Source: Parvibaculaceae bacterium
Lineage (GTDB): Bacteria; Pseudomonadota; Alphaproteobacteria; Parvibaculales; Parvibaculaceae
Direction of reading: 5' to 3'
Assembly: GCA_028283765.1 (NCBI GenBank)
Contig: JAPWJY010000001.1
Span: 66,357 to 130,356, forward strand
DNA length: 64,000 nucleotides
Below the pieces are notes generated by a model. It was not told the origin of the DNA and made no database searches. It saw nothing but the letters and a program-made list of their open reading frames with translations. The translations under genes were made by a program, and so were the position numbers. Below, one piece after another: positions 1,982 to 55,448 of this stretch (position 1 is its first letter; every line of letters begins with the position of its first letter).

Positions 1982-2704
1982 TTATTGAGGTGACTGATCG
2001 TCAGGTGAAAAATGGCGCGGGAAGAAAGCCGCCAGAAAGGTGCGCGTGGTGCGCCGCATGCCGGCGCGGTCGATATGGCCGGGCGTGAACAGAAGATCGA
2101 GCCAGAGGCCGTCCGTCATGGCGCTCAATCCCGTCGCCACCCGGTCGGGATCAAGCGCGCCATAGCCTCCTTCCTCGATCAGCGCCTTGCAGAGCGCCGA
2201 GAGGTGGACAAGCTGCTCACGCTCGCGCGCCGAACAATGCCGCTTGACCGTGGGCCGGGCTTTCGCCTCGCCATAAAATGAATGCCATGCGGCGATTTTG
2301 CGCCGGGTGCAGACCATCGGGTCGAAATCCGCCATCATCATGGCTTCGAGCCTGGAGGCCGGATCGTCCGCCGCCGCTGCGGACGCCTGCGTCCAGCAGG
2401 CGCGATATTCCTCGGTCAGATATTCCAGCGTGTCAGTGAGCAACTGGTCTTTCGTCGCGAAATGAAAATTGACCGTGCCGACGGCCAGCCCCGCCTCCCG
2501 CGCCACATCAGACAAGGTGAGACTGCCGAGCCCCTTTTCAGCAATCGCGGTGATGGTCGCCTCGATCAGCTGCTGACGGCGAACCTCGCGGCTCGCGGTG
2601 CGGTCTCCGGCGCGAACGCTCTCCGTCGCCTCGCCTGAATCGACAGGCCTGAGACGGACACGGCCACCGCGCGGAACAGCCTTTTCGGCCCTGGCGTCGG
2701 TCAT
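1982..2704 (-). CDS. TetR-family regulator, BetI-like
   Basis: A one-component repressor-type regulator. The N-terminal helix-turn-helix covers SLTLSDVAREAGLAVGTVNF, ending in HFATKDQLL as in BetI-type TetR proteins. The C-terminal ligand domain ends in RTFLAAFFP. An upstream in-frame ATG would add 10 residues (to 2734), but the ATG at 2702-2704 has a good GAGGGAG ribosome site and is preferred. The protein is paralogous to the TetR half of the fusion at 10907-12796 over its full length. It is divergent from the aminotransferase operon, with a 20-bp inverted repeat between them (2806-2825), and probably controls both that operon and the acyl-CoA dehydrogenase behind it. BetI senses choline in known cases; the ligand here is not known. 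Confidence 0.9.
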   Translation of the reverse strand: MTDARAEKAVPRGGRVRLRPVDSGEATESVRAGDRTASREVRRQQLIEATITAIAEKGLGSLTLSDVAREAGLAVGTVNFHFATKDQLLTDTLEYLTEEYRACWTQASAAAADDPASRLEAMMMADFDPMVCTRRKIAAWHSFYGEAKARPTVKRHCSAREREQLVHLSALCKALIEEGGYGALDPDRVATGLSAMTDGLWLDLLFTPGHIDRAGMRRTTRTFLAAFFPRHFSPDDQSPQ

Positions 2705-2805
2705 TTCAGCGGATTCTCCCTCATTCCATCTCACTATAGTTCAAATAATTTAATATAACAAATTCTATTTTTATCATTAAATACAGCAAGTTAACCAGTT
2801 TAAAT

Positions 2806-2825
2806 GACTGAACCATCATTCAGTC
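2806..2825. promoter_or_regulatory. Inverted repeat, likely TetR operator
   Basis: GACTGAA, six bases, TTCAGTC: a perfect 7-bp-arm inverted repeat in the AT-rich divergent gap, about 100 nt upstream of the TetR start and 71 nt upstream of the aminotransferase ATG. Size and position fit a dimeric TetR site controlling both directions. The assignment to this regulator is inferred from position. Confidence 0.6.
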
Positions 2826-10906: not shown

Positions 10907-12796
10907 TTACTTCCGCGCCAGCTCCTTGTTGATGCGCCCGAGCGTGCCTTTTTCCGGCGCGTGAGCCAGACGCGCGGCGGGAATGCTGCGGCGGACCCAG
11001 TTCTGGAAATTGTGCACGATCACTTCCTTTTCCGACAGGATGCCCGCGACATAGGAGTCCGACGTCAGGCCGTGCTGGACTGAATCGACCAGGCTGTCGT
11101 CCTCGGACTGGACCTGCCAGTTGATGCGCCAGTTGAGCCAGCGCGCGGCATTGTCGCGGCGGTTGTCCTGCTCCGGCAGCCGGTAATTGCGATAGCGGAG
11201 CTGCGAGCGGCCCGGCGAGATCGGGATGACCTGGAACGTGCCCATGACTTCGGGATAAACGTCGAAGGAGAGCAGCGGATACATGAAGAAATAGCTCCAG
11301 TTCGTCTGCATGTCTTCCGGCAGATGGGCCTGCGGCTGGAGGATCTTCTGGTACATGCGGCCGGACCATGAGGTTGCCGGCTTGTCGCGCAGGCTGTGGC
11401 CCAGACGCGCAACCCGCTCATCGGGGGCCGCCTCGATGTCATAGCGCTGGCCGGTGAGGCCATAGAGTCCCGGGTGCCCGATGGCGAAATGATAGCCTTC
11501 GAGATAATTGTCCCAGACATTCTTCCAGTCCGCGCCCGTCTCGTTGAAGGTGTGCCCCTCCCCCATCGGGATCAGATCCTCGAAACGGTATTTCGCCATT
11601 TCCTCCGCATAAGGCGCAAACCGCTCCGCGACCGAAGGACCGTCGCCGCCGAAGCGGATATAGACGAAGCCCATATGCACTTCTGTCTCGACCGGCGGCA
11701 GGCCGAAATCGAGATGCTCGAATTCATTGAAGGTGTGCGGCGCGGAAACGACTTCCAGCTTGCCGTCGAGCCCATAGACCCAGCCATGATAGGGGCAGGT
11801 GATGCCCTTCTTCGGGCATGTGCCGCTTTGCCCGGTGACGAGCGCATGGGCGCGGTGGCGGCAGACATTGTGGAAACCGCCAATCCCGCCGTTCGCGCCG
11901 CGCACCACGAAGACGCGCTGGCCGAGCAGTTCGAAGGTGCTGTAGTCGCCGACATTGGGGATTTCATTGACGTGGCAGACGACATGCCACTCCTTCATGA
12001 AAATCTCCTGCTTTTCCAGCTCGAAGAATTCATCGTTGGTATAGATCCAGGCGGGCAACGTGTGCGGCGGGCCTTCGGGATCGTCCGGCAGCAATTCGTA
12101 GCCATCGCCGGTCACCGGAAAAGGCAGCACCGACCGCGCGGTCCTGGCCGGAGCGGCGGAGGGCAGGACCGCCGTGGCCGTAGCGGGCAGGACGGCGGCG
12201 AGGAAAGTCCGGCAATCGCGTTTGGCCTTTTCGCGATCGAGCGTCTCCCCGACGAACAGCAGATCCTGCCAATAGGTGTCGAGCAGACCGGCAAAGGCGC
12301 GCGCCAGCACATGGGCTTTGTCCTTCTCCTCGATCAGGGCCTCGAACAGGCTTTCGATAGCATCGAAATAGACCTTGTCGCGCTCGCCGCACAATGTCGT
12401 GTAGCTGTCGCGCCAGCGGCTCTCGCTGTGGAAGGCGAACCAGACGGCGACCCGGTCGGGCTGGGAGAGCAGCGGATCGAAGGTGAGATCGACAAGAGCG
12501 TGAAGCCCGGCCACCGGATCACCCCGGGTTTCCGCCATGGCGGCCGTCAGGGCATCGGCAAATTCGTCCGCAAGGTGGCGCAGCGTCTCGGTGAGCAGGC
12601 TTTCCTTGGTGTCGAAATGATGATTGACGATCCCCGCCGACAGCCCCGCCTCGCTCGCCACCCTTGCGAGCGTGGTGCCCGCCAGCCCGTGAAAGGCGAC
12701 CACGCCGATGGTCGCCTCGATCAGTTCGCGCCGGCGGCCATCGCGCGTCCCGCGCAAAATCTGTTCACCCGCCTCAATCCGGTCCACGGCTGCCAT
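10907..12796 (-). CDS. BetI/TetR regulator fused to a Rieske non-haem iron oxygenase alpha subunit
   Basis: One uninterrupted 629-codon frame joins two normally separate proteins. Residues 1 to about 205 are a BetI-like TetR protein: HTH around TTLARVASEAGLSAGIVNHH at residues 41-60, then a ligand domain ending RTFLAAVLP. A Pro/Ala-rich linker (about 205-225) leads to a full Rieske oxygenase. The [2Fe-2S] ligands are Cys312-x-His314 and Cys334-x2-His337 (CPYHGW). The mononuclear iron site has His436 and His441 (NYLEGYHFAIGH), with an Asp near 566 as third ligand. Glu433 stands where most ring dioxygenases have the bridging Asp, as in the quaternary-amine oxygenase CntA. The ATG (12796) has a GAGGG ribosome site and a 22-bp palindrome just upstream, suggesting autoregulation. 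No reductase partner is in the window. An internal GTG start for the oxygenase half near 12150 is possible but has no good ribosome site. Confidence 0.92.
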   Translation of the reverse strand: MAAVDRIEAGEQILRGTRDGRRRELIEATIGVVAFHGLAGTTLARVASEAGLSAGIVNHHFDTKESLLTETLRHLADEFADALTAAMAETRGDPVAGLHALVDLTFDPLLSQPDRVAVWFAFHSESRWRDSYTTLCGERDKVYFDAIESLFEALIEEKDKAHVLARAFAGLLDTYWQDLLFVGETLDREKAKRDCRTFLAAVLPATATAVLPSAAPARTARSVLPFPVTGDGYELLPDDPEGPPHTLPAWIYTNDEFFELEKQEIFMKEWHVVCHVNEIPNVGDYSTFELLGQRVFVVRGANGGIGGFHNVCRHRAHALVTGQSGTCPKKGITCPYHGWVYGLDGKLEVVSAPHTFNEFEHLDFGLPPVETEVHMGFVYIRFGGDGPSVAERFAPYAEEMAKYRFEDLIPMGEGHTFNETGADWKNVWDNYLEGYHFAIGHPGLYGLTGQRYDIEAAPDERVARLGHSLRDKPATSWSGRMYQKILQPQAHLPEDMQTNWSYFFMYPLLSFDVYPEVMGTFQVIPISPGRSQLRYRNYRLPEQDNRRDNAARWLNWRINWQVQSEDDSLVDSVQHGLTSDSYVAGILSEKEVIVHNFQNWVRRSIPAARLAHAPEKGTLGRINKELARK

Positions 12797-12806
12797 GACG
12801 CCCTCA

Positions 12807-12828
12807 CTGTTAAATGATCATATAACAG
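12807..12828. promoter_or_regulatory. 22-bp palindrome upstream of the TetR-Rieske gene
   Basis: CTGTTA, then ten bases centred on TGATCA, then TAACAG: 20 of 22 positions are symmetric. It lies 10 nt upstream of the TetR-Rieske start codon, immediately before the ribosome site, the expected place for an autorepressing TetR operator. Confidence 0.6.
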
Positions 12829-12892
12829 TTTAGTCCCTGTTTTTGGCCGGGCGCAAGACACTATTAAATGGATATTCAGCAAAAATTGAATC

Positions 12893-12922
12893 ATGAACCA
12901 GTCCCTCACGGGACCGGTTCAT
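12893..12922 (-). terminator. Terminator-like hairpin after the MAPEG gene
   Basis: ATGAACCAGTCCC and GGGACCGGTTCAT pair in a 13-bp stem with one mismatch and a TCAC loop. It lies just past the MAPEG stop, and on the minus strand a TTTTT run follows about 8 nt later. It would separate the MAPEG transcript from the TetR-Rieske promoter. Confidence 0.6.
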
Positions 12923-29894: not shown

Positions 29895-32800
29895 TTAGAG
29901 AGAAGAGCCGGGCTGATCGACAAGCCGGTCCAGCCTGCGTTTCTCCTGCACGGTCAGCTTGTCCTTCTGCGCCTCGCTCAACACGCCGTTGCCAAGCAGG
30001 TGAACCGCGCTGTCGGGATCGTAGCTCTGCCTGCCGTCGCCGCTCCGGCGTTTTCCATTCTGATCCTGCGACGTCCCCTGGGCCGGCGCGCCATCTCCAC
30101 CGCCATATCCGATAACCTCGACGGTGATGATCGAAGGCAGATCCTGCGTCGTCCGGTTGCTTTGCCCCATAGCTTGTGCGGCCTTCGTCGCTGCACCGGC
30201 AGCATTCGAGGCGGTGGTCAGCGCGCCGATGTTCGGCGACATCGCCCTTGGGATGCCTTGCGCCGTGCCGCCAACCTGTATGTTGAAGGCGTTGAGCACC
30301 TGCAGGGCGACGATGTCGAGGTTGCCGGCCACCCGGATGCCCGCAGCCCCTGCATCCACCGTCCCGTGCGGGGCGGCCAGGCTGACATTGCTGAGGGCGG
30401 GATTCTGCCCCGCCACGGTCAGCAGCGCGCCGATGCCTGCCCCCGTCACCAGCCCGGCAGGACTGACACGGCAATAACCATCTACGTCGCAGATCAGTTG
30501 CAGCGGGGGATAGGCAGCCGAAGACTTCGGTCCCTTGCCGGCGTTCAGGTCGCCGTTGGCGCTGAACAGGTCCACGTCGCCGCCCTGCTCGGTGAAGATG
30601 CGGCTCTGGAACACTTGCACATCGCCATCGACATAGGCCCGTACGCTGCCACCTTGCAGAGTCAGAATACCTTCCTGATTGGGACTGATCTTGTCGGCCT
30701 GGTTGTAGCCGACGGTGATCGAACCGCCGGGACCCAGTATGTTGATATCGCCGCCGGTCTGGGTCTCGATCCGCGAACGGGCCATGACCAGATCGCCGGT
30801 GTGCGCCGTGGTCGAGGCACCGTTGCTCTCGCCGGTGTTGTTGTTCGTATAGCCGGAACTGGCCGGGAACAGCGTGGCGATGGTGTCGTAAGCCCGCGCA
30901 TACTGGTTGTGATACGGACTGTTCGCATCGCCGTAATCGGTGGAGACCTGGGTCAGGAAGTCCAGGAACGCCCGGTCGACCAGCAACTGCTGCTTCTGCG
31001 CCGGCAATGCCTGGAACGCCGCCCAGGCCGCGTCCGGTGATAGGCCCATATAGCCCGCAATCTCAGGCAGGTAGTTGATGCCCTGCGCCGCCCCCGCACC
31101 CGCCGGATCGACGTAAGCGGAAACCGCCGCCGCATAATCGACACCGCCACCGACACCGAACAGGGTGGTGATGTCGGCACCCTCCACCGGCAGATAGGGA
31201 ATGATCCCTGACGTTGCGATACCCTGGAAGTTCAGGATTTTGCCGATACTGGAGCCGTTGCCCAGTGCGAAGATGCCACCGCCCGTATCCGAATAAGGGG
31301 ATGCCAGGAACGGCCCAAGATTGCGCCCGGCCGTTACCTCGAACTGCCCAGGACCATAGAGCATCAGCACCGTGGAGCCCTTTGGCTGGAGATAGCTGAT
31401 GATGTTGCCGGGACTCGGCGCTCCATTGCCCAGGATATAGGTCACGCCGTCGATCACATTGGTCGCGCGGATGTCGCGGCCGGCGATGACCGAGGTCACG
31501 TCGCTGGCACTGTTGTTCTGGCCCGTGAAGCCGGTGTTGAGGATGTCTCGGCCCGCTTCCACCCGCGCCGGCTTGATCAGGCTGAAGTCGCCGATGATGT
31601 CCTGGCCGGCATAGATCAGCACCGGATCGGGATCACCAGCGTGCAGCGGAGCCGGCAGTGTCGCCGGCGTCGGCGCTCCCAGCATGCTGTACAGGTTCAC
31701 CCCGCCGGAGACGGTGGCGTCGGCCATCTGGATGGAGTTCAACTCGAAAACAGAGGAACCACCATTATTGAAGCCTGGGATCGTGAAGGCAGTGGACAGG
31801 TTTTGGCCCGCCGCCAGGATCAGGGTTCCATCGATTGAGGGGTACAGGAAGTAAGGAAACCCATTGTTGGCACGGTCCCCGATGGTCAGGTCACCGGCCA
31901 CCGAAATCGCCTTCAGGTTCGGCGGCAGCAGGTTGTCCGAGGTCCGTTGGGTTAGGGCGAAATCACTGGTAAGGGTTGCCGGGAAGGCGTCGACCATGCT
32001 CACGTCACCGCCGGCAGCTATCAGACTGACGCCGCTGTTCGGCCCATAGCTGTCGAATCCCCCTACACCCGCCGGCAGTTCACTCAGGGGGAAATAGGGA
32101 TAGTTGGCGAGGATCAGCCGCGTCGGCTGGAACACACCGCCCAGATCGAGCGATCCGCCCGCCTGCACGGTGATGTATCCGTCCTGTTCGGCCAACAGCA
32201 ACGGAAGCGGCGTGGGACTGAATATTGAGGCGATGGGGGTTGGGCCGCCGAACTGAATCGGATAGACGGCAGTTGCCTGGCCTGTGACCGGATTGGCGGG
32301 ATCGGTCAGCACTGAACCGCTGACCCGCACCGTACCACTGCCGCGCCCGACATAGAAGGCGCCGCTGTAGAGATCGCCGCCGACCGTCACCGACAGGTCG
32401 CCGCCGCCGAAATAATGCGCCGCCGATGCGCTGTCACCCGCGAAGCGCCCGCCGTTGACCTGGATGGTTTCAGGCAACGAGACCGACAGATCGTAGGTGT
32501 TGCGTCCCGACGTCACCGTGACATTGCCGCCGCCCAGCGCACCGACGCCCTGAAAGAAGGTGCCGTAATTGACATAGGCACTGTTCTGCACGCCGCCTTC
32601 GGCCACATTGAACGGTGCCGCTGCCTCACCCGTCGTGTCGCCCAGGGGGATGTACCAGACGCTCCAGAACTGGGCCATGGACGGCGAATTGCTGCCCAGG
32701 GTCTGGGCGCCGACCACCCCGGAAGCGGTCACCTGCGTTTCGCTGTCCACCGGCGTTTCGATGCCGATGATATCGCGTCCCGCCGACAGGATCACCGCCC

Positions 32801-35800
32801 CGCCGCCAGTCGCCCAGGTGGGCGTGGTGGCGAAATCGTTGATAGTCACGCTATTGGTATAGCTGGACGGCAGCGTCGGCGCGGTGAAGTCGTCAGCGTT
32901 CGGCGCCACCGTCCCTGCCGTATAGACGGCGGCAGGCGACAGGGGATCAAGCCATTCGATATCGCCAGAGGCCACCATGTCGATGGTGCCGGTGCCGGTG
33001 CGGATGATGGTAGGCACATCGACTTGCGGATGATAGGTCGCGCCGCCAGTTGCGATCGAAATCGCTGTGTTCGACACGGAGATATGGCCGTCGAGCGTGA
33101 CATTGCCGGTCACGCCGCTGCCCAGCGCCGCCAGCAATACCACCGCTTCCGGATTGACCGGCGCGGGCGCCGCCGGGGCCGCGAACTGTGCCCCCGCGAC
33201 AAAGCGATAGCTCGAACTGCTGGCCTCCGCCGCCAGGTCCATGCCGCTGATCGGCGACTGGTCTGTCGTTGTCTTGACCGGCGCTGGGTCGTTATTCACC
33301 AGCGGCGCGATTGTGCCGATCGCTGGCGGCGGCAGAGGCGCGACGGGTAGCGTCGCGGGACTGGTAAAACCTGCCCAATCGTAATATGCGCTCAGATAAA
33401 GATCATAGGCCGCAATATAAGATGAATAGCCGGAGAGGCTGTTTGCGTTGTAACTGAGTGTCGCGGTGTTGAGCAAATCGGTGACGTTACTGGGCTGCGG
33501 TTCACCGCCATCGCTCTCGCTCAGGAAAAAACCATCATTGAAGATAATCCCGTTCTGAAAGAACAAGTCCCACTCGGCTGCATACTGCCGGTATAGGGCA
33601 TAATAGCTCATGACCGTTTCTGAAGATGCGCCAGAGAAAACGGTTGGAGCGCCCAGTGCCATGCCGTTGGGATTCAGCGGCGTAGCCGTATCCGTCAGGT
33701 CTGTCGCGAGTCCGCCGTAATTGATACCCGACAACATGTCGGCATTGTCGTAGTTCTGATAGACACCGATGACTGTGTTGTAGCTGTCCGTCCCCGTCGG
33801 CGGATTGTATCCCCCCACCGTCGGGTTTTTCTGAAAGAAACCGTCGGTGATGCTGGCATTGAGGTTGACGTTGTTGGCGGCGCGCAGCACCAGGGTCGGC
33901 GCCCAGCCATTGTCGCGATAATACAGTGAGGCCGGATTGCCGTCCGGGCCCGCCACGCCCGCGCCCAGGTTCCAGGCGGTCGCCACCGTGATGTCGCCGT
34001 TGTTGACACTGCTTAATGGATTGACCAGATCGACTTCCGGGCTGACATGCAGCATTGAAGCAGAGTTGAGCGAAACCGGCATGCCATCCTGGCCGATCTG
34101 TATCTTCCCGCCGGAAAGTCCGGCCAGCGCCGCGGCGTCATTCCCCGCGAACGGATTCTGGATGAAGCTCATCAGCGTGCCCGCAGCACCGTTCGCCGGG
34201 TTCAGGCCATAAAAGGTTTCGTGCGCGATCCTGCTAGCGTCCGTGCTGGCCGCTGTCGGCGTGAAATAATCATCGACCAGGAACTGGTTCACCACGCTTT
34301 GCGGGAAAGTGACCAGGGAATTCCACGAACCCGATACCGCGCTTCCGTCGCCCGTAGTGGAGGCGACATTGAGGACCAGAGCGCCCGTCGTCGCATCATA
34401 GGACGTGATGCTGCCCATCATCGAACCACCGGACGGGCCGGTATCTGTCAGCGTAATGGCTTCGCCGGCCGTATAGGACTTCCCGGTGGCGATGGTCAGA
34501 ACCTTGGTACCCGTGCCGATGGTGAACGGCTGGGGCGATGCCGTGTGCACACTCGCGCCGACGCCGGGGACGGCAAACAACAGATTGGCGTAAAAGTCAT
34601 TGTAAGCGCTGTTGTAAAGGTTATTTGCTATATCGCTGGTCAGGCCCGGCAGATAAACATCAATGCCCCCTAGAGAGGAGGTGGTGTGCGCGCCCATGAC
34701 CGTACCGGTATATTGGACAACGCCCAGCGCGCCATAGATCTCCACGGTAATGACACTTCCGGGCGTCAGTGATTCTGCGCTCGTTGGAATATTTCGCAGC
34801 CAAAAATATTGTATTCCGTTGGAGTCGAGGTCACCCCGTTTAATCAGTAGGCCCCATTCGCACAAGGCAAGCCCCGTTGTCGGGAGAAGAGTTCCGTTGT
34901 TTGCAGAATAGACGGTCGCGCCAGAAAAGTCCGTAGCAGTGGTAGTGCCTTGCGTAATGTTCATGACCAGCGCGCCGGTGCGGCTGTCGTAAGAGACAAC
35001 TGTGCCAACAATATCCTGCAAAAGCGTGCCATGCGCTCCGGGGTGTGTAGGGCTACCCGGTATCGTGAGCACGATGGTCTCGCCGGGGCTGAGATCGAGG
35101 CCAGGCTGTATGGTCATCACTTGCGTGCCGAGGTTCGACAGCAACGGCTGCGACGACACAGGGCTGAAGCTGGAGTCGCCGTTGCCGCTCCAGGTTGAGA
35201 CAACATTGCCCGACGCATCCTTGAACGTGCCCGCCAGAAGAACGCCACCTGAGGAATACCATCCCGCTGGATCGATGATGCCGTCGAAGTATTTGGTTGT
35301 ATCGGATTGTTGGTCGGCGGTTGACCAGGTGGCATAGGGTTCGAGCACCAGGCCTTTGCCGGAAGGGTTACCGTTGGCGTCGGCATTTGTGATGAGGGTA
35401 CCGCTGAAGGAGACGTTGACGGATCGGTTTGTTCCGTCGGCATTCTCCACGATGGGCGCGCGCAGATAGACGGTGCCACCGGTGTTGGCGATGTTGGCGC
35501 CGCCGGGGCCGCCCGAAACGTCGAAGGTTGCGCCGTTGGCGACGGTGATGGAGCCGGACTGGGTGGGCAGGACGATCTCGTAGCCCTGGATGGGGTCGAG
35601 GTTTGTGGTGGAGCCGATGCCGGAGGTGCCCAGGATGATGGTGCCGCCGTTCTGGACTAGGGCTGATGTGCCGTTGGCGTTGGCGGGGTCGTTTGCGTCG
35701 TCTGGGGCGTAGCGGGCGATGAGTTGGGCGGTGGCGCCGATGTTCACACCGCCGGTGACGGTGGCGCTGTTGTTGGCGCCTGCGCCGTAGAGCTGGATGG

Positions 35801-38800
35801 TGCCGCCGGAGGGGCCTGAGGCATCGAGGGTGCCGTTGACGGTGACGCTGCCGTTGTTGGCGACAAGCTGGATGGTGCCGGACGAGATGGTCTGTCCGGC
35901 ATCGACCAGGATGTCGCCCTGGCCGAGGGTGACGGCATAGGTGCCGCTGAAGCTGGCGCCTTGCGGCAGGCTGCCGGAGAGTTGGCTGGCGTTGAGGATG
36001 AAGGTGCCGCCCAGGTCCTTGTAGGCGGCGCTGCCCAGCAGGGTGCCGCCCAAGGTGGCGGTGCCGTTTGCGGCGGCGATGGAAAGCGTGCCGGCATAGC
36101 CGTTGCCCGCGGCGGAGACATCGACGGTGGCGCCGGACGCGATGGCGACATTGCCGGTGTCGGCGGTCAGCCTGACCGATCCTGCGGCGACGTCTTCGTT
36201 GAGGCCAAATAGGGTGATGCGGCTGCCTTGGGCGGCGATGTTCGCGCCGGAGGCGAGGTTGAGATCGCCGCTGGTGGCTTCGAGGGTGATGGCGCCGCCG
36301 GGCGCCAGGATGGCATTGGCGACACTGATGCTGGCGCCGGTCAGCGCGATCTTGCCGCCCAGCATGGTGGGGACAAGCGTGGGCAGCGCGCCGCCGGTGG
36401 GGGTGAGCGTGAGGGCGCCGGTAGTGGTCAGCGCTTGCGATGCGCCGGTATCGGCGAGAATGGCGGGCGCGGTGAGGGTGATGTTGGCGGCTCCGGCGTT
36501 GAGCGATCCGCTGCCGCTGAACAATATCTCGGCGGCGCCGGTCAGGGCGGCTTGCGCGAAGCCGCTCCAGGTCTGGCTCCCCTGCCCCATGGTGATGGTG
36601 CCGGTGGCGGCGATGTCGAGGGTGCCGCCCGATCCGGTGGTATGGGCGCCGGCGGCGCTGGGCGTGGCCTCGCTGTCGAGGATCGTGACATTGCCGGCGG
36701 TAACGCTGACCGTGCCGCCGTCGCTGTAGAAGCCGCTGCCGTCGAACACCAGGGTGCCGATGGGCGCGCTCGCGGCACCGAAGGTTTCGGACCTGTAGAG
36801 ATTGAACACCGAGTAGCTGTGTAGGGTCACCGACTGTGCGCCTGCAAAGCGGGTCAGGGCGTCCGGCGAAAGGGTCAGGCCGCTGGGGTTATGCCCACCC
36901 AGGTTGATCAGGCTGCCCGCGAGGGTGTAGTGCGCGGCCTGCAGGCTGGCGGCAGGAGCCAGAATGTTGGTTCCGCTGGAGTCCAGAATGATGGACGAGC
37001 CCTGAAGCATGGCCGCACCGATGGCAAGGCCTCCTTCCGGCGCCGCCGGCACCGGCCCGAATGCGGCCGGCAAGGTCGAGGCGTCATAAATTCCTGGCAC
37101 GAAGGCGCGGCTGACGGCGATGTCATCGCCATTGGAGACGCGCAGCAGTGAGCCGTCGCCGCTGACGCCGGGGATATAGCTGGTAACGGCACCGGTGGCG
37201 GTGTCGGTCGCCGTGACCACGGGATTGGCGCCGATGGTGATGGCCTGGCTGGAACCGGCAGGCACGGTGCCCTTGGCCTGAACAACGCTGCCGTCGGCAA
37301 CGACCAGACCCGTGCCGAGGCCAGGCGTGGCGATCAGCACGGTAGCCCCGCCGATCTGGCCGGAGCCACCGGCGCTGGCGCCGGTGAAGCCGAGCACACC
37401 CGTCGCCGGGTCGTAGGACGTCACCGTGCCCTGGACCCAGTTCAGCGGACTGGCAGGGTTGTAGAGCGTGATCCCGGTCCCCGGCGTGATGCCGGAAAGC
37501 CCCTGGGCGACGGTCGTGGTCTGGGCACCGGAGGCGGCATTGACCTGGGCTGTGGCAGTGGTGCGGGTGATCGAGCCGCCGGTGGCCAGAATCAGGTCCG
37601 GGGCGGTCAGCGGATGGGCCGCATCGGTGGCGACCGTCAGACTGACGGCGGCGGGGGCGACAGAGACGCCCGAGGTGGTTGTGGTGCGCACGCCACCCAC
37701 CAGCAGGCTCACGACCCCGAGATTGCTGAGCTGATCGGCGTCCAGGAGGGTTGCCCCCTGATAGGCGGGATTGGCGGCGTAGGCGGCAGCCTGATCAGCA
37801 GCGACGACCAGAAGGTTGCTGCCGGTAACGTCGGCAAGGCCTCCACGGCCGGTGAGGGTCACGCCCGACGCGACCGTGACCGAGCCGATGGCGAAGTTGT
37901 CGGTGGCGTTGAAGTCCAGAGCGCCGGTAGCGGCCAGGATCAGGTGGCCTGCGTCTATCGGCAGGCGCGGGACGGCCAGGCCGTCAGCCAGGGCCGTCCC
38001 GGTGAATGCGCTGTTGGCCGAGGAAATATCGATCTCGGTGTATTTCGACCAGACCGCGTTCGGCTGGATCTCAAGCATGGCACTGAGCGGGGCGGTCGCG
38101 CCGCTGATGGCATTGCCAAGGACGCCCGTGGTGTAGATCGAGCCATCGGCGGCGGTGAAGGAGGAGCGGTTGCCCGAAGTCGCGGCGGTGGAAGAGACCA
38201 CCACGCGGTAGGCCCCCGGCAGGGTGGCATACATCGCTGGCATCAGGACATAGGTCCCGGCCGCCACGCCCGAACCGCCCGGAAGGGTCACGGTCTGGCC
38301 CAGGGGCGTGGAGAAGGCGGACGCCGCATCGGCCCCGCCCTGGCCCCAGGAGGTCAGGTTGTAGCCGCCTGTCGGGAAAGGTGTGGAGACAGTGGCCTCG
38401 TAGCCCGGCACAAGGGCATAGACCGTTTGCGATGAGGTGGTCAGGAGATTGCGGCTGCCGCCGGTGCCGGCGACAAACTCGGTGGCATAGACGTCTCCGC
38501 CGCCGGAGAGGTCGAGGATCGCACCCGCTTGAGTGCTCACGTTGGCCCCTGCGAGAATCACCTGCTTCTCGGGCAAGGCGGCAGTCTGCCAGGTTCCGTT
38601 GATGGTGTAGCCGAAGGGGATATCCTGCCCGGCGATGGAGCCGGAGGTCAGGCTGCCCGAGCCGAGGACCACGCTGTTGGTGGCCGGCGCAGCCCCGACG
38701 AGCGACAGGCTGGAGCCAACCGGCTCGCTGGCGCTGACGCCGAGCTGGATCGAACCCAGCGGCGCAAAGAGGGCGCCATTCTGGACGATGGCCGGTGCAT

Positions 38801-41800
38801 CGACCAGAAGGCTGCCACCGGCCGAGAGCGGCATGGTGGGTGTGGCGCCATTGGAGGCGATGGTGATGGTGTTGCCAGTTCCCAGGCCAAGGGACAGAAG
38901 GGCAGCCTGCGTGCTTGTAGCGACATAGACCTCGCGCGCGGTGAGCGACAGGCTGTCCGGCACGTTCAGACTGGTGGTGCTGAGCGCGGGCGCGGCAACC
39001 GTGCTGCCGTCGGCCTGAATCGGGAAGTCGATGAGCGGCTGGGAAAGAACGCTGCCATCGGCCCAGATCAGGCGGATATCGCCGCCGCTTGCGAGATTGA
39101 CGCTGGCCGCGCCGGAGACGCTGACCGCGCCCTCGATGTCAATCTGGGATGCTGCGTTGAGGTTGAGCGTCCCATCGCCCAGCGTCGGCGTGGTGGGCCC
39201 ATAGCCCAGCAGGCGGATATAGTTCGCATCGAGATTGACGACTGCGCCGCCGGTGGATGGCAGCACGACCGGGCCGATCAGGTCGAGTTCGCCAAGGCCC
39301 GGCATCGAGACGTTGCCGGCGATCTTGATCTGGCCGCCATTGAGGACGGCCGTGGAGAAACCGCTGTGCGAAAGCATGTCGGCGGTAACGTAAGCACTGC
39401 CGCTCGAGGCCTGCGCCTGTGACAGCAGCGCCGACAGATCCGATGCCGTTCCCGGCGCCGAAGCCCCGTCGAAGGGCGCGGCCGGGCTCGCGCTCTGCGT
39501 CAGGACGACGGACCCGTAATTGTTGTTGATGAGATTGTTGGCCGCCCGGGACGTTCCGCTGACATTGCCCACGACAATGGCCCCGCCGGCCGCCCGGCTT
39601 GCACCACCGGAAGCGTCGATTGTCCCACCGAGAAAGAGGTTGGTCCCGCCGTTGAACACCAGCGATCCACCATCGCTCCAGATCGGCTGAAAGGAGAGGC
39701 CCGGGCCCCTCTGCAGGCTGCCCGAGGCCGGAGGGACCTGGATCATGGCCTGGCCGCCGGCCAGATCGAGCACGGCGCCGTCCTGCACGATCACCGCGCC
39801 ATTGCCACTGTAGCCTATGCGGGTCGCGAACTGGGTCAGGCCGAAAATGATCGACCCGCCGGAGAGTTCGGTCCCGGTCGAGTAGTCGATGACATCGGGA
39901 TTGGGAACGAAGGCCCCGCTCACGTCGATGGTCGCGCCCGAGCCGATCCAGCTGTCCAGGGCACCGGCCAGAGTGACCACGCCGCCATGATCAGCGATGG
40001 AACCGAGGATATCGACCGAGCGGCCGGAGATGAAGGTGATCGAGGCGCCCGGATCGGTGACGATCGAGGCCCCGGCGCTGAGCACGACGCCAGCCGTCGT
40101 GGCGGGATCGCCGGCCTGACCGAAAGCGAAGGGCAGTTCGGTTGCCGAAAGGCTTGCGGCGTGGCGTTGGCCGTCGGGAGCGAAGCCGAGCGCGGCGAAG
40201 CTGTCCAGAGCGGCGCCGGTCGCAGGCAAGCTGGCGGGGAGATCGAGCTGGTAGCTTTGCTGCTCCAGCCGCACCGTCGTGCCCGATGCGACCGTCACGC
40301 TGCCATAAGTGCTGGTGAGGCTGAAGGACGAGAAGCCGTTCTGGAAGAAACTCGCCGGCAGGGTGACCGTCCCGTCGGACAAACCGGAGGTGGATGAGGA
40401 GACTGTGCTCGCGGCCCCGTCAACGACGATGGCCGGAGCCTGCAAGGTGAAGGCACCCCCGGTGGAGAAGCCTCCGGCCCGGATTGTCCCGTCCATGATC
40501 ACGGTAGCGGCGGTCGGGGCGGCGGGTGCGTACTGGTTACTGTTCTGATCGTAGAGGTTGTCCAGCGTCGTGTCTGAAATCCATCCGGCCGTATAGGCAT
40601 AGGCAGCCAGCGACAGGTTGCCGCCAGTGCCGCTCGGCAGGCCGTCCGTGCCCGTGGCGAGCTTGCCGCTGGTCTCCACATAGCCGCCGCTCGACACGTC
40701 GATCAGGCTGCCAGACTCAAGCACGATCGAGGCAGTGCCATCGGCGGCGTCCACAGTAGTGATACCGCTTGTCGAGGACGTGCCCACAGAATGGCTGAGC
40801 GCATAGGTCGTCAGCAAGACTGATCCGCCGTTGGTGAAGGCCTTGCCGAGCATGGACGCGGCACTGGCGCCAGTGTCGTTGACCCAGAGGCCCGAGACAT
40901 CGAGCGTGGCATGCCCCCCCAGGACGAGGTTCTCGTAATCCACCGGGAATACATAAGCTGTGGGATTGCCGTTGGTGCTAATGGCGGTGGGCTGGAAGCC
41001 GGAGATGGCGATGGTCCCGCCATGGGCCACGATGGTCCCGTCGATGGTCGTGGCATTACCAAGCGTGACGGAGCCACCCGGGCGCACGGTCAGTGTCGCA
41101 TCCTGCTGCATGGACAGGCGGGAGGCGCCCTTGATGCTGATCGAGCCCAGTCCATCTGCCGACAGCTGGGCAGTGGAGTAGGTAATCACGGGCAGGTGGA
41201 AGGCGTCGGTGGGCAATATCCCACTCAGCGGAGCGGCCAATGGCCCCGCGCCGTTCAGGAAATTGGACGTCAGGTAATTGAAGCCGGCCGGCAGAAGCTC
41301 GGGCGCGGTATCGGCGAGAATAACCTCATCGGCCACGGTGCCGCCGCCAATCAGATTAATGGCGAGGGAAGCGCCCAGAGGCAGTTCGTCCGGAGTCGCC
41401 TGGGTGCCATTCGCGCCGGTTCCCGCCTGAGCCAGATTACGCTGGTGTTGGCCGATCAGAACATCGCCTTCGACTGTTCCTTCGAGGATTGGATTGATTG
41501 CCGTAAGACTGACGCTGCCGGCGCTGATGCCGTCGATATAGCCGGGATTATAATACCCGCCTGACAGCAGCCCGCTGACATAGGTCTCCTTCACACCCCA
41601 GGCCTTGTGATCGACGGTGAACTGGCCAGCGAAGCCCTGATAGGGGATGGATGGGTCGGCGTTGCCAATGTCGTAAAGATGCCCGTCCGCACCGAGAAGT
41701 CTAGTGGTCTGGATGGCAGCACCAGAGAACTGGATCGCCCCGCCGGAGACGTTGATCAGCGAGCCCGGCTCCTGGATGACATCGGAGAAGCCATGCCCCT

Positions 41801-43733
41801 GAGCGACAGTGAAGGAGCCCCCCTTCGACAATAGCTGGTCAATCGACTGGGGGATGTCACCGAGGTAGCCGTTGCCGCTCGATGCGAAGAGCGGTGAGCC
41901 GACCCACGCCTTCCCGTCAGCCCTCGTGCCCGAGAGCAGCAGGTTGATGGTAACCGTCTGGCCGATCAGGCTCTGCGCCAGAGGGGCATCGGCCACATCA
42001 TTGGCTGTAACCTTGAAGGTGTAGAGATATTGCGAGAGCGAAGCCACCGCAGTGGTCCCGGACAGATCGATGATGCTGTCCGGCTCAAGGAGTACACGGC
42101 CAAAGGTACTGGAGGAATTGGCATAGATACCGCCGACGGTGAAGGCCGCGCCAGGCGCCTCGATGAGCGAACCAGACTGGAAGTCGACGCCGGCAGCGTT
42201 GATCACCGAGATTCTGGGCGCCGTGAATGCGCTGAGCGAATTGGTCGGGATGGTTTCGCCGTTTTCGTCGGGCAGGATCGAGGTGAGGCTGTCCGGACCG
42301 AAGATCACGGATCCCAGAGCCGACCCCGGCGCTGTGGCGATCAGGCTCGGCGCGCCTACGGCTTGCAGCACGACCGAGCCGGCACGGGTAATGCTGGTGG
42401 TGACGGCAATGTCGCCGAGTTGCTGGACAGTGTCACCGACGATCGTGACATTACCGCGGTCCGACGACAGCACCCCGCCCAAAGAATTGGCGGCTACGCC
42501 GCCGAGGTCACCCAAATCATCGATCGACGTCCAGATCAGCGTGTTGAAACCAAGCTCAAGGCTCGGGCCCGGAATGACGGTAAGGTTGACGCCGCCGCTG
42601 ACCGGTTCGGAAAGGCCGAGGTTGGCTCCGGCTGCCAGCACGATCTGCCCGGCCGACGCCGCGATGCTGCCCGCATTGCTCACCTGTGGTCCCGCCAGCA
42701 CCACCAGGCCGCCATTGTCGAAGCCGCTGACATTGGTCGAGATCGAGGCCCCCGCCTGAACCTCGACGCCCGCATTTGTCTGGTTCGCGACAGAGGGCGC
42801 GGAAAGAACCAGGGTTCCGCCCGTGCTGGCGGATGCACCATTGATGAAGAGGCCGCTGGTGAGGAAAGCGACATTGCCGCTGTCCTCGTTGGCGGGCGCG
42901 AGAAGGGCCGCGCCGCTCGATGCCGTCTGGGCCAGACCGTTCACCGTGATCGGCGCATAGCCGCCGCTGGCGTTGAAGACGCCCACATTGGCGGCACCGG
43001 CGTTGCCGTAACTGTTGATATCGAGCGATGAGGCGATCAGCGAGTGGACGTTGACCTGCGACGAGCCCGAAAAGACGATCCCGTTGGGATTGATCAGCAG
43101 CACCGTCCCCTCGGCCCGGATCCGGCCCTCGATCTGGCTTGGGCGTCCGCTCGCATCGATCCGGTTCAGCGCAACCCAGCTGTTGCCGTTGGCCGAATTG
43201 CCCCCGCTCTGGTCATAATAGAGCGTCGTCTCCCGGCCGACATTGAACTCCTGCCACGTCATCACCGCGCGTTCGGCCGTCTGTTTGACCGTCACCACCG
43301 TCTGGCCGGAGCCAGAGGACGACGCCACCGGCTGGCCCGCATTGCTCCACAGGTTCGGGTCGCTCCCCGCCGCAACGCGGGGGTCGACCACCAGTCCCCC
43401 TGCCCCCAGACCGTTGGGGACCGTGCCCGGCGCCGACAGCGCGATATTGCGCGCCGCCGTCTGCGCCGCCCGCATCGCCGTCAGCGCCTGCGTCACCCGC
43501 GCCAGCGCATTCTGCGAGCGCTGCGCCATCGCCGCCGCCTGTAGCGACCCCGCCTGTGCCGCCGCTACCGCCGCCAAACTCGGACTCGAAACCGGCGCAC
43601 CAACCAACGGACGCGAAAACACAACAGAACTCACAGAAAGCAACGCCGCCATGCTCACCGTGGTGAAAAGACCTGCACGGAGAAAAAAGCCGGGGCGACG
43701 GGAAAAATGAACAGCAGCATGATCAACGGGCAT
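29895..43733 (-). CDS. Giant filamentous-haemagglutinin-like exoprotein (4612 residues)
   Basis: A very large secreted, beta-helix-type adhesin. After an extended signal region (hydrophobic TTVSMAALLSVSSVVF, residues 23-39) and an Ala/Gln-rich helix (50-100) comes the two-partner-secretion domain (about 110-260) with the NPNG motif at residue 215 in VLLINPNGIVFSGSSQVNV. Thousands of residues of imperfect Gly/Ser/Ala/Thr beta-solenoid repeats follow, with many LxVxAGGxI-type rungs and GGxVDLFSANGDLNAGKG near the end. The tail has TTASNAAGAATKAAQ, then DLPSIITVEVIGYGGG, and a charged end. The same tail closes the paralogue at 55.4 kb. Three phage-tail-like SYD-TG-L modules lie inside (about 2078-3141). 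It is the last gene after STN-sigma-FecR on the same strand. No TpsB transporter is seen. The start has only a weak ribosome site. Confidence 0.92.
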   Translation of the reverse strand: MPVDHAAVHFSRRPGFFLRAGLFTTVSMAALLSVSSVVFSRPLVGAPVSSPSLAAVAAAQAGSLQAAAMAQRSQNALARVTQALTAMRAAQTAARNIALSAPGTVPNGLGAGGLVVDPRVAAGSDPNLWSNAGQPVASSSGSGQTVVTVKQTAERAVMTWQEFNVGRETTLYYDQSGGNSANGNSWVALNRIDASGRPSQIEGRIRAEGTVLLINPNGIVFSGSSQVNVHSLIASSLDINSYGNAGAANVGVFNASGGYAPITVNGLAQTASSGAALLAPANEDSGNVAFLTSGLFINGASASTGGTLVLSAPSVANQTNAGVEVQAGASISTNVSGFDNGGLVVLAGPQVSNAGSIAASAGQIVLAAGANLGLSEPVSGGVNLTVIPGPSLELGFNTLIWTSIDDLGDLGGVAANSLGGVLSSDRGNVTIVGDTVQQLGDIAVTTSITRAGSVVLQAVGAPSLIATAPGSALGSVIFGPDSLTSILPDENGETIPTNSLSAFTAPRISVINAAGVDFQSGSLIEAPGAAFTVGGIYANSSSTFGRVLLEPDSIIDLSGTTAVASLSQYLYTFKVTANDVADAPLAQSLIGQTVTINLLLSGTRADGKAWVGSPLFASSGNGYLGDIPQSIDQLLSKGGSFTVAQGHGFSDVIQEPGSLINVSGGAIQFSGAAIQTTRLLGADGHLYDIGNADPSIPYQGFAGQFTVDHKAWGVKETYVSGLLSGGYYNPGYIDGISAGSVSLTAINPILEGTVEGDVLIGQHQRNLAQAGTGANGTQATPDELPLGASLAINLIGGGTVADEVILADTAPELLPAGFNYLTSNFLNGAGPLAAPLSGILPTDAFHLPVITYSTAQLSADGLGSISIKGASRLSMQQDATLTVRPGGSVTLGNATTIDGTIVAHGGTIAISGFQPTAISTNGNPTAYVFPVDYENLVLGGHATLDVSGLWVNDTGASAASMLGKAFTNGGSVLLTTYALSHSVGTSSTSGITTVDAADGTASIVLESGSLIDVSSGGYVETSGKLATGTDGLPSGTGGNLSLAAYAYTAGWISDTTLDNLYDQNSNQYAPAAPTAATVIMDGTIRAGGFSTGGAFTLQAPAIVVDGAASTVSSSTSGLSDGTVTLPASFFQNGFSSFSLTSTYGSVTVASGTTVRLEQQSYQLDLPASLPATGAALDSFAALGFAPDGQRHAASLSATELPFAFGQAGDPATTAGVVLSAGASIVTDPGASITFISGRSVDILGSIADHGGVVTLAGALDSWIGSGATIDVSGAFVPNPDVIDYSTGTELSGGSIIFGLTQFATRIGYSGNGAVIVQDGAVLDLAGGQAMIQVPPASGSLQRGPGLSFQPIWSDGGSLVFNGGTNLFLGGTIDASGGASRAAGGAIVVGNVSGTSRAANNLINNNYGSVVLTQSASPAAPFDGASAPGTASDLSALLSQAQASSGSAYVTADMLSHSGFSTAVLNGGQIKIAGNVSMPGLGELDLIGPVVLPSTGGAVVNLDANYIRLLGYGPTTPTLGDGTLNLNAASQIDIEGAVSVSGAASVNLASGGDIRLIWADGSVLSQPLIDFPIQADGSTVAAPALSTTSLNVPDSLSLTAREVYVATSTQAALLSLGLGTGNTITIASNGATPTMPLSAGGSLLVDAPAIVQNGALFAPLGSIQLGVSASEPVGSSLSLVGAAPATNSVVLGSGSLTSGSIAGQDIPFGYTINGTWQTAALPEKQVILAGANVSTQAGAILDLSGGGDVYATEFVAGTGGSRNLLTTSSQTVYALVPGYEATVSTPFPTGGYNLTSWGQGGADAASAFSTPLGQTVTLPGGSGVAAGTYVLMPAMYATLPGAYRVVVSSTAATSGNRSSFTAADGSIYTTGVLGNAISGATAPLSAMLEIQPNAVWSKYTEIDISSANSAFTGTALADGLAVPRLPIDAGHLILAATGALDFNATDNFAIGSVTVASGVTLTGRGGLADVTGSNLLVVAADQAAAYAANPAYQGATLLDADQLSNLGVVSLLVGGVRTTTTSGVSVAPAAVSLTVATDAAHPLTAPDLILATGGSITRTTATAQVNAASGAQTTTVAQGLSGITPGTGITLYNPASPLNWVQGTVTSYDPATGVLGFTGASAGGSGQIGGATVLIATPGLGTGLVVADGSVVQAKGTVPAGSSQAITIGANPVVTATDTATGAVTSYIPGVSGDGSLLRVSNGDDIAVSRAFVPGIYDASTLPAAFGPVPAAPEGGLAIGAAMLQGSSIILDSSGTNILAPAASLQAAHYTLAGSLINLGGHNPSGLTLSPDALTRFAGAQSVTLHSYSVFNLYRSETFGAASAPIGTLVFDGSGFYSDGGTVSVTAGNVTILDSEATPSAAGAHTTGSGGTLDIAATGTITMGQGSQTWSGFAQAALTGAAEILFSGSGSLNAGAANITLTAPAILADTGASQALTTTGALTLTPTGGALPTLVPTMLGGKIALTGASISVANAILAPGGAITLEATSGDLNLASGANIAAQGSRITLFGLNEDVAAGSVRLTADTGNVAIASGATVDVSAAGNGYAGTLSIAAANGTATLGGTLLGSAAYKDLGGTFILNASQLSGSLPQGASFSGTYAVTLGQGDILVDAGQTISSGTIQLVANNGSVTVNGTLDASGPSGGTIQLYGAGANNSATVTGGVNIGATAQLIARYAPDDANDPANANGTSALVQNGGTIILGTSGIGSTTNLDPIQGYEIVLPTQSGSITVANGATFDVSGGPGGANIANTGGTVYLRAPIVENADGTNRSVNVSFSGTLITNADANGNPSGKGLVLEPYATWSTADQQSDTTKYFDGIIDPAGWYSSGGVLLAGTFKDASGNVVSTWSGNGDSSFSPVSSQPLLSNLGTQVMTIQPGLDLSPGETIVLTIPGSPTHPGAHGTLLQDIVGTVVSYDSRTGALVMNITQGTTTATDFSGATVYSANNGTLLPTTGLALCEWGLLIKRGDLDSNGIQYFWLRNIPTSAESLTPGSVITVEIYGALGVVQYTGTVMGAHTTSSLGGIDVYLPGLTSDIANNLYNSAYNDFYANLLFAVPGVGASVHTASPQPFTIGTGTKVLTIATGKSYTAGEAITLTDTGPSGGSMMGSITSYDATTGALVLNVASTTGDGSAVSGSWNSLVTFPQSVVNQFLVDDYFTPTAASTDASRIAHETFYGLNPANGAAGTLMSFIQNPFAGNDAAALAGLSGGKIQIGQDGMPVSLNSASMLHVSPEVDLVNPLSSVNNGDITVATAWNLGAGVAGPDGNPASLYYRDNGWAPTLVLRAANNVNLNASITDGFFQKNPTVGGYNPPTGTDSYNTVIGVYQNYDNADMLSGINYGGLATDLTDTATPLNPNGMALGAPTVFSGASSETVMSYYALYRQYAAEWDLFFQNGIIFNDGFFLSESDGGEPQPSNVTDLLNTATLSYNANSLSGYSSYIAAYDLYLSAYYDWAGFTSPATLPVAPLPPPAIGTIAPLVNNDPAPVKTTTDQSPISGMDLAAEASSSSYRFVAGAQFAAPAAPAPVNPEAVVLLAALGSGVTGNVTLDGHISVSNTAISIATGGATYHPQVDVPTIIRTGTGTIDMVASGDIEWLDPLSPAAVYTAGTVAPNADDFTAPTLPSSYTNSVTINDFATTPTWATGGGAVILSAGRDIIGIETPVDSETQVTASGVVGAQTLGSNSPSMAQFWSVWYIPLGDTTGEAAAPFNVAEGGVQNSAYVNYGTFFQGVGALGGGNVTVTSGRNTYDLSVSLPETIQVNGGRFAGDSASAAHYFGGGDLSVTVGGDLYSGAFYVGRGSGTVRVSGSVLTDPANPVTGQATAVYPIQFGGPTPIASIFSPTPLPLLLAEQDGYITVQAGGSLDLGGVFQPTRLILANYPYFPLSELPAGVGGFDSYGPNSGVSLIAAGGDVSMVDAFPATLTSDFALTQRTSDNLLPPNLKAISVAGDLTIGDRANNGFPYFLYPSIDGTLILAAGQNLSTAFTIPGFNNGGSSVFELNSIQMADATVSGGVNLYSMLGAPTPATLPAPLHAGDPDPVLIYAGQDIIGDFSLIKPARVEAGRDILNTGFTGQNNSASDVTSVIAGRDIRATNVIDGVTYILGNGAPSPGNIISYLQPKGSTVLMLYGPGQFEVTAGRNLGPFLASPYSDTGGGIFALGNGSSIGKILNFQGIATSGIIPYLPVEGADITTLFGVGGGVDYAAAVSAYVDPAGAGAAQGINYLPEIAGYMGLSPDAAWAAFQALPAQKQQLLVDRAFLDFLTQVSTDYGDANSPYHNQYARAYDTIATLFPASSGYTNNNTGESNGASTTAHTGDLVMARSRIETQTGGDINILGPGGSITVGYNQADKISPNQEGILTLQGGSVRAYVDGDVQVFQSRIFTEQGGDVDLFSANGDLNAGKGPKSSAAYPPLQLICDVDGYCRVSPAGLVTGAGIGALLTVAGQNPALSNVSLAAPHGTVDAGAAGIRVAGNLDIVALQVLNAFNIQVGGTAQGIPRAMSPNIGALTTASNAAGAATKAAQAMGQSNRTTQDLPSIITVEVIGYGGGDGAPAQGTSQDQNGKRRSGDGRQSYDPDSAVHLLGNGVLSEAQKDKLTVQEKRRLDRLVDQPGSSL

Positions 43734-46644: not shown

Positions 46645-47883
46645 ATGACGATCTCCACCTTCGAGAAGCCCGAGACCCGCCGTTCCCGCCTCGCAGGCGG
46701 CCACGGCAAAACCCTGCTCCTTCTTTTCACCGTGCTGGCGACCGCCGGCGGGGGGACAATGCTGTTGCACTCCAGCCCCGCGACGCCCGCCGCACCGCCC
46801 CCTCTGGTCACCGTCGCAACGCCGCTTGAACGGCAGGTGAACCAGTGGGACGAATATGTGGGCCGGTTCGCGGCCAGCAAATCGGTCGAGATTCGCCCGC
46901 GCGTGTCCGGCCCCGTCACGGAAATTCATTTCAGCGACGGCCAGATGGTCGCGCAGGGGCAACTCCTCTTCACCATCGATCCACGGCCCTATGCCGCCGC
47001 GCTCGACGAGGCCAGGGCCGGCGTCAGCAACGCCGCGAGCACGCTGGCGCTGGCGCGGTCCGACTATGCCCGGGCGGCCCGGCTGCGCGGCGACGACGCC
47101 GTCTCGGCAAGCGAGATCGATGCCCTGCATACGCGCGTCGAGGCTGCCGGAGCCGCGCTGGCGGCGGCCAAAGCACGCGTGGAAGCCCGCGCGCTCGACG
47201 TCGAATTCACCCAGGTCAGGGCCCCGATTGCCGGGCGCATCTCCGACAGGCGCATAGACGCGGGCAATCTGGTTGCCGGGGGCGAAGGCGCCGCCGCGAC
47301 CCTGCTGACCACCATCAATGCGCTTGATCCGATCTATTTCACCTTCGACGCATCTGAAGCCCTCTACCTGAAAGCAAGGCGTGAGGGGCTGGGTGACGGC
47401 GCCCCGGTCGAGGTGCGGCTCCAGGACGAAACCGGCTATGCCTGGAAGGGCAAGCTCGACTTCACCGACAATGGCATGGACCCGCGTTCGGGCACGGTCC
47501 GGGGGCGCGCGACCATCGCCAATCCCCGGCTGCTGCTGACGCCCGGCATGTTCGGCAACATGCGGATGGAAAGCGGAACGGGGCGGGCCCTGCTAATACC
47601 CGACACCGCCGTGCAGACGGATCAGGCCGACAAGTCCGTTCTCGTTCTTGGACCGAACGACATCGTTTCGACCCGCCCCGTAAAACTCGGACCCTCCATC
47701 GACGGTCTTCGTATCGTCACCGCCGGTCTCCGGCCAGACGACCGCGTGATCATCGGGGGGTCCCTCTCGGCCGTGCCGGGCACGAAAGTCCAGGCTCAAT
47801 CCGGCACGATTGCCGCCCTTGCGGATTCCACGGTCTCGCCAGCCACGCCCGTCGCCGCGGCCGCGACCTTCGCCGCGAACTGA
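46645..47883 (+). CDS. RND efflux periplasmic adaptor (membrane-fusion protein)
   Basis: A 412-residue AcrA/MexE-type adaptor linking the inner-membrane pump to the outer-membrane channel. A single N-terminal hydrophobic anchor (KTLLLLFTVLATAGGGTMLL) has no lipobox. The barrel-sandwich (lipoyl) halves are VEIRPRVSGPVTEIHFSDGQMVAQGQLLFTI and the mirrored VRAPIAGRISDRRIDAGNLV, flanking a coiled-coil hairpin (about 115-175). Beta-barrel and membrane-proximal domains follow, with VRGRATIANPRLLLTPGMFG. It has a GAGGAA ribosome site and is 24 nt ahead of the pump gene. Substrates not predictable; the MexEF-type appearance suggests small toxic compounds. Confidence 0.95.
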   Translation: MTISTFEKPETRRSRLAGGHGKTLLLLFTVLATAGGGTMLLHSSPATPAAPPPLVTVATPLERQVNQWDEYVGRFAASKSVEIRPRVSGPVTEIHFSDGQMVAQGQLLFTIDPRPYAAALDEARAGVSNAASTLALARSDYARAARLRGDDAVSASEIDALHTRVEAAGAALAAAKARVEARALDVEFTQVRAPIAGRISDRRIDAGNLVAGGEGAAATLLTTINALDPIYFTFDASEALYLKARREGLGDGAPVEVRLQDETGYAWKGKLDFTDNGMDPRSGTVRGRATIANPRLLLTPGMFGNMRMESGTGRALLIPDTAVQTDQADKSVLVLGPNDIVSTRPVKLGPSIDGLRIVTAGLRPDDRVIIGGSLSAVPGTKVQAQSGTIAALADSTVSPATPVAAAATFAAN

Positions 47884-47907
47884 AGCTCATCATCAAGGAA
47901 CGCACCC

Positions 47908-55414: not shown

Positions 55415-55448
55415 GCCGGGCGAGGGCTGAAAATCCTCAGCGCCCGGC
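55415..55448. terminator. Hairpin between ChaC and second giant exoprotein
   Basis: GCCGGGCG and CGCCCGGC form a perfect 8-bp stem, with CTGA/TCAG inner pairing and AAATCC at the tip. It spans the gap between the convergent ChaC and exoprotein stops and overlaps the last codons of the latter. T-tracts are weak. Confidence 0.4.

Follow-up and report, generated by a model that had tools for sequence, protein, structure and literature searches.

A fused regulator and oxygenase in one open frame

The window analysed here, a 64,000-nucleotide stretch of Parvibaculaceae DNA, contains a gene that joins a BetI-type TetR regulator to a Rieske oxygenase, and at least 16 genomes (groups A and B, below) carry such a TetR-Rieske fusion. 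The sequences directly support one open frame, retention of the fusion, full ligand sets and a conserved upstream motif. On comparison of these sequences, we lean towards the view that the protein is a bifunctional autoregulatory trigger enzyme, that is, a quaternary- or N-methylated-amine-type oxygenase that would repress its own gene.

An earlier reading of the sequence alone (the sequence-only reading) had claimed a single frame of 629 codons, and this was borne out: one unbroken ATG-to-stop frame runs from 12796 to 10907 on the minus strand and encodes 629 aa. The features of the gene, with the evidence for each, are as follows:

10907..12796, minus strand: fused TetR(BetI-type)-Rieske oxygenase gene, 629 aa (single frame, Pfam, full-length fused homologues)
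12182..12739, minus strand: TetR half, with the HTH at residues ~20-70 and the BetI-type C-terminal ligand/dimer domain to ~205 (Pfam, invariant residues, dN/dS)
12044..12181, minus strand: flexible Pro/Ala linker, residues 206-251 (AlphaFold2 pLDDT, variability among fusions)
10910..12067, minus strand: Rieske oxygenase half, residues 244-629 (Pfam, ligand conservation, CntA 6y8j alignment, Foldseek)

Four Pfam matches, all exceeding their gathering cut-offs, were found in the order TetR_N (25-70), TetR_C_6 (95-203), Rieske (269-359) and Ring_hydroxyl_A (421-605). Together with the alignments, they agree with the previously claimed layout of TetR DNA-binding and ligand domains, a linker and a complete Rieske oxygenase. 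The AlphaFold2 model, built from 11 sequences (mean pLDDT 72), showed two folded regions separated by the linker (pLDDT < 50), which differs in length and sequence from fusion to fusion. The dN/dS values between the window fusion and that of the sister species were 0.14 for the HTH, 0.11 for the ligand domain, 0.06 for the linker and 0.08 for the Rieske region; these estimates indicate that purifying selection acts on both halves.

The fusion recurs in independent genomes

A second species of the genus carries a full-length single-frame fusion with 95% identity. Nine more genomes with full-length fusions at 42-59% identity were identified by a scan of genome contigs, each being checked as one open frame; one of the nine (L033) runs to the end of its contig. 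Group A comprises 11 fusion genomes, including that of the window, while group B comprises 5, all of another family (that of genome G200). In a class-wide scan of 385 genomes, fusions were detected in G000, G200 and G373, and within G200's family 5 of the 16 scanned genomes carry one. A phylum draw of 399 genomes revealed no additional fusion.

Because the same in-frame fusion recurs in independent genomes, the sequence comparison indicates that the TetR-Rieske fusion is genuine and not an assembly artefact. The continuity of the frame at the junction was upheld by both the sister-species fusion and the nine more divergent ones. Related genomes do have unfused neighbouring TetR/Rieske pairs, as would be expected if a missing stop or a frameshift, arising from sequencing or assembly error, had merged two adjacent genes. 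However, the in-frame fusion is present in 15 other genomes, which rules such an error out, and the low linker dN/dS against the sister species also speaks against it; we give this explanation practically no weight. A plasmid- or phage-borne origin was likewise rejected, as no full-length match was found among PLSDB or phage records. One fusion (L037, 7968-9746) lies in a record titled 'Mycobacterium sp. KBS0706' and groups with the alphaproteobacterial fusions; the record may bear a wrong name, or the gene may have been transferred.

The Rieske half retains all cluster and iron ligands

The Rieske half contains the [2Fe-2S] ligands C312, H314, C334 and H337, the iron ligands H436, H441 and D566, the bridging residue E433, and Y431. 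It has the CxH...CxxH pattern, the 2-His-1-carboxylate set and the bridging carboxylate of a Rieske oxygenase alpha subunit. All Rieske and iron ligands are invariant across the 11 aligned fusions of group A, including the six that the sequence-only reading had named (every one of these ligands except D566), and the two group-B fusions that were compared have them as well.

HMMER alignment to CntA (6y8j), with numbering corrected for the CntA construct, which is offset by 20 residues, matched Y431-L-E433 with Y203-M-E205 and D566 with Asp323. In CntA, E205 serves inter-subunit electron transfer and Y203 serves quaternary ammonium binding (PMC7948474). Y431 is invariant in group A, and these fusions thus resemble group Va, in which the residue aligned with CntA Y203 is aromatic. 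Among solved structures, CntA and stachydrine demethylase came closest to the Rieske half, both by sequence and by Foldseek; the best sequence and fold matches were CntA (6y8j, 6zgp) and Stc2 (3vca, 4qup), group V quaternary-ammonium oxygenases that share the ligand set, the bridging Glu and the Tyr at the Y203 position with the fusion. In contrast to the fusion, the CntA and Stc2 chains have no DNA-binding domain, and their identity to the Rieske half is low (about 25%).

The glycine betaine monooxygenase model (GbcA, NF058607) scored 141.5 bits against a curated cut-off of 670, and a GbcA identity was rejected. The sequence evidence favours quaternary or N-methylated amines as the substrate class, without naming a single compound. 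The next best Rieske matches in the window genome were about 30-32% identical, and no second close member of the clade was found in that genome. No reductase gene was found beside the fusion or on the window's contig; the genome has three FAD_binding_6 matches, none on this contig, and one of the three lies near a different Rieske gene.

The TetR half is BetI-type but does not pass as BetI

Ten HTH residues are invariant in the group-A alignment (R21, R22, T42, V46, N58, H60, F61, K64, L67 and L68), and the TetR half combines TetR_N with the BetI-type C-terminal domain TetR_C_6, both above gathering cut-offs. Against the BetI model TIGR03384, it scored 105.1 bits, under the curated equivalog cut-off of 201.3, and a BetI identity was rejected. 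The palindromic motif of the fusion family, TTRAAYGATCATTYAA, is also unlike the reported BetI box, ATTGACG*CGTCAAT (PMC12442346). The fusion thus resembles BetI, a choline-responsive TetR repressor, in having TetR_N, TetR_C_6 and a palindrome near the start of its own gene, but differs from it in its score, its motif and the attached enzyme. Since the fusion falls short of both curated cut-offs, BetI and GbcA, the label 'choline sensor' is not supported by its sequence, and the earlier claim of choline/BetI sensing is weakened by both the missed BetI cut-off and the dissimilar motif.

A conserved palindrome precedes the fused genes of group A

A 16-bp palindrome (approximately the motif given above) precedes every group-A gene tested, often in two copies about 21 bp apart. 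The following elements were found upstream of the window fusion:

12806..12829, unstranded: inverted repeat ACTGTTATATGATCATTTAACAGT, separated from the ATG by 9 nt; within it, 12810-12825 is the core and matches the motif better than any other site in the 64-kb window
12864..12879, unstranded: another motif match, TTAAATGGATATTCAG, outscored in the window by the 12810-12825 core alone (motif scan)
12893..12922, minus strand: terminator-like hairpin separating the motif sites from the upstream MAPEG gene (1 found vs 0.3 expected in shuffles)

A palindrome had previously been placed at 12807-12828; it is real, at slightly wider limits, and the motif core lies inside it. In a leave-one-out scan of group-A loci (3.6-64 kb), the top site lay upstream of the fused gene, no more than 150 bp away, in 10 of 10. 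De novo discovery, unseeded and across all upstream parts, recovered the same sites with a score of 197, compared with 86-98 in 12 nulls that were matched for composition and not restricted to promoters. A strong upstream site was present for 2 of the 5 group-B fusions (G200 and G784), and no good motif match was found upstream of the G373, G781 and G783 fusions or of the unfused Acidisoma TetRs.

The motif also occurs ahead of a number of unfused Rieske genes, within TetR/Rieske divergons and within BetI-like/aminotransferase divergons (window 2808-2823 and L032), and its presence at unfused Rieske genes and BetI-like divergons therefore ties the regulator subfamily to the oxygenase clade. 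A relaxed form of the motif was not enriched genome-wide (11 forward matches vs 15 for the reversed control), and a genome-wide regulon was rejected on that basis. A consensus promoter scan upstream of the fusion identified no promoter. Because the terminator-like hairpin lies between the MAPEG gene and the motif sites, the sequence suggests that the fusion gene is transcribed as a separate unit. A second BetI-type TetR gene (1982-2734, minus strand) is divergent from a class-III aminotransferase gene, with the 2808-2823 match between them. The two BetI-type proteins of the window have similar candidate sites, and therefore either could act at the motif, so that cross-talk is possible.

A proposed self-repressing enzyme and its alternatives

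PutA is a trigger enzyme that joins a ribbon-helix-helix domain to flavoenzymes, and to our knowledge self-repressing enzymes are few, each mostly a special case. The fusion resembles PutA in having catalytic and DNA-binding domains in one polypeptide, for which sensing, self-repression and catalysis are likewise proposed; it differs in joining a TetR regulator, with its own ligand domain, to a Rieske oxygenase, and its DNA binding is a prediction. The sequence-only reading had already put forward a PutA-like trigger enzyme. This idea gains strong comparative support from the HTH, the catalytic ligands and the upstream site, all conserved across divergent fusions, although its choline/BetI part is weaker.

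In the mechanism that we propose, the BetI-type TetR half would bind the 16-bp palindrome, mostly 10-60 bp before its own gene, and block expression, and the Rieske half would oxidise a small N-methylated or quaternary amine in the manner of CntA or stachydrine demethylase, with a reductase supplied from elsewhere in the genome. A pathway compound in the TetR pocket would lift the repression, and the newly made protein would use up that compound until repression was restored. As repressor and enzyme share one polypeptide, they would therefore be held at a fixed 1:1 ratio. We infer DNA binding at the site, repression, catalysis, the substrate class and the coupling of the halves by ligand from the comparisons described above. 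More tentatively, the Rieske/iron site, through its occupancy or its redox state, might, together with the TetR pocket, directly set DNA binding, and the fusions would then be recurrently evolved self-repressing oxygenases; if true, such control would make them single-gene sense-and-consume circuits.

Several other explanations were weighed against the self-repressing enzyme. The two halves may both be active and tethered without coupling, the fusion merely co-producing them, with the TetR ligand controlling transcription and the Rieske half working independently. The disordered, variable linker and the split versions found as adjacent genes in related genomes fit this account, which we regard as possible though rather improbable. 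The fusion has been kept at 42-59% identity and has probably arisen twice, and this deep retention and probable double origin therefore suggest a benefit beyond co-expression, without being decisive. The Rieske half could also be a sensor of oxygen, redox state or substrate and not a working enzyme, by analogy with MocR/GabR. These regulators (PMC5320631, PMC4944035) carry a GntR DNA-binding domain and an aminotransferase-like sensory domain; they are likewise transcription factors fused to a metabolic-enzyme fold, and they show that regulators with enzyme-derived sensory domains exist. The DNA-binding and enzyme domains of MocR/GabR belong to other families, and the TetR-Rieske fusion, unlike them, fully keeps its catalytic ligands and has a separate TetR ligand domain. 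A sensor would be consistent with the missing linked reductase and with the group-B fusions of G200 (L073, 8139-11311) and G784 (contig C67), each of which directly precedes an unfused Rieske paralogue that is possibly the working enzyme. However, every cluster and iron ligand and the bridging carboxylate are retained, and no other close clade member that could perform the chemistry was found in the window genome, so we consider a pure sensor unlikely.

The gene could, finally, yield two separate proteins through an internal start or proteolysis. The linker does contain weak in-frame GTG/TTG codons, and AGGAGA precedes an ATG at spacing 5, but this ATG lies 21 codons inside the Rieske domain; moreover, the fusions share no internal start codon at a conserved position. 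An internal start was accordingly rejected, and separate products are very improbable.

Regulator-enzyme fusions are already known in kind (PutA, MocR). No description of a TetR-Rieske fusion was found in the open-access literature searched, a scope that covered few subscription papers, and the sequence-only reading had known of none; annotated but undiscussed examples may be present in databases. This architecture, spread across several bacterial families, offers a small and testable case of feedback through a single gene, and it connects a regulator and a motif with a clade of quaternary-amine-type Rieske oxygenases that is still uncharacterised. It is also a natural protein in which TetR dimerisation must fit with Rieske trimerisation, the latter by analogy with CntA.

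Evolutionary origin of the fusion

The TetR-half tree rejected a joint clade of all fusions (AU p 0.0002), also after addition of the Acidisoma TetRs (p 0.001), whereas the Rieske-half tree did not reject a joint clade of groups A and B (AU p 0.137). In the Rieske tree, group A forms one clade that includes one unfused, long-branched member (L092), and group B is separate; in the TetR tree, group B branches among TetRs whose genes either adjoin an unfused Rieske gene or lie away from one. Given that only the TetR-half trees reject a single clade, two independent fusion events are likely, being the simpler reading of these trees, but unproven; an old fusion that was later split in some lineages could also account for them.

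Unfused clade members adjoin a BetI-like TetR gene in G075, G202, G212, G299, G307 and G375, all genomes of the same class. These pairs belong to the same families as the fusion and have a related site before the Rieske gene, but, unlike the fusion, are two separate proteins. Acidisoma cellulosilyticum and A. silvae carry a group-A TetR without the Rieske half. The BrkB-type gene downstream of this TetR is the one that also comes after the fusion in Acidisoma sp. L85, and in A. cellulosilyticum and A. silvae the enzyme half was likely lost from a fusion. Acidisoma TetRs at L040 7905-8555 and L041 7788-8558 are closely related to the fused TetR halves and have neither a Rieske half nor an upstream motif.

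Gene neighbourhood

The neighbours of the fusion in the window include a class-III aminotransferase gene, two FAD amine-oxidoreductase-type genes, a GcvT-like gene, an ADP-forming acyl-CoA synthetase, the second BetI-type regulator, an acyl-CoA dehydrogenase and a polyamine-type ABC transporter. Some of these genes are found again at L032, L034 and L035 and near unfused relatives, whereas the L036, L038 and L042 neighbourhoods have little in common with the window. The substrate is uncertain because the neighbourhoods differ between fusions. A FadH/old-yellow-enzyme-type flavoprotein (~690 aa) recurs near members of the Rieske clade (L038, L077, L078, L087, L088 and L091). Elsewhere in the window, two very large filamentous-haemagglutinin-type ORFs lie on the minus strand, one of 4612 aa with a TPS secretion domain and DUF3739 (29895-43733) and one of 2853 aa with DUF3739 (55437-63998), and an HlyD-type adaptor gene followed by an AcrB-type RND pump gene lies on the plus strand (46645-51090).
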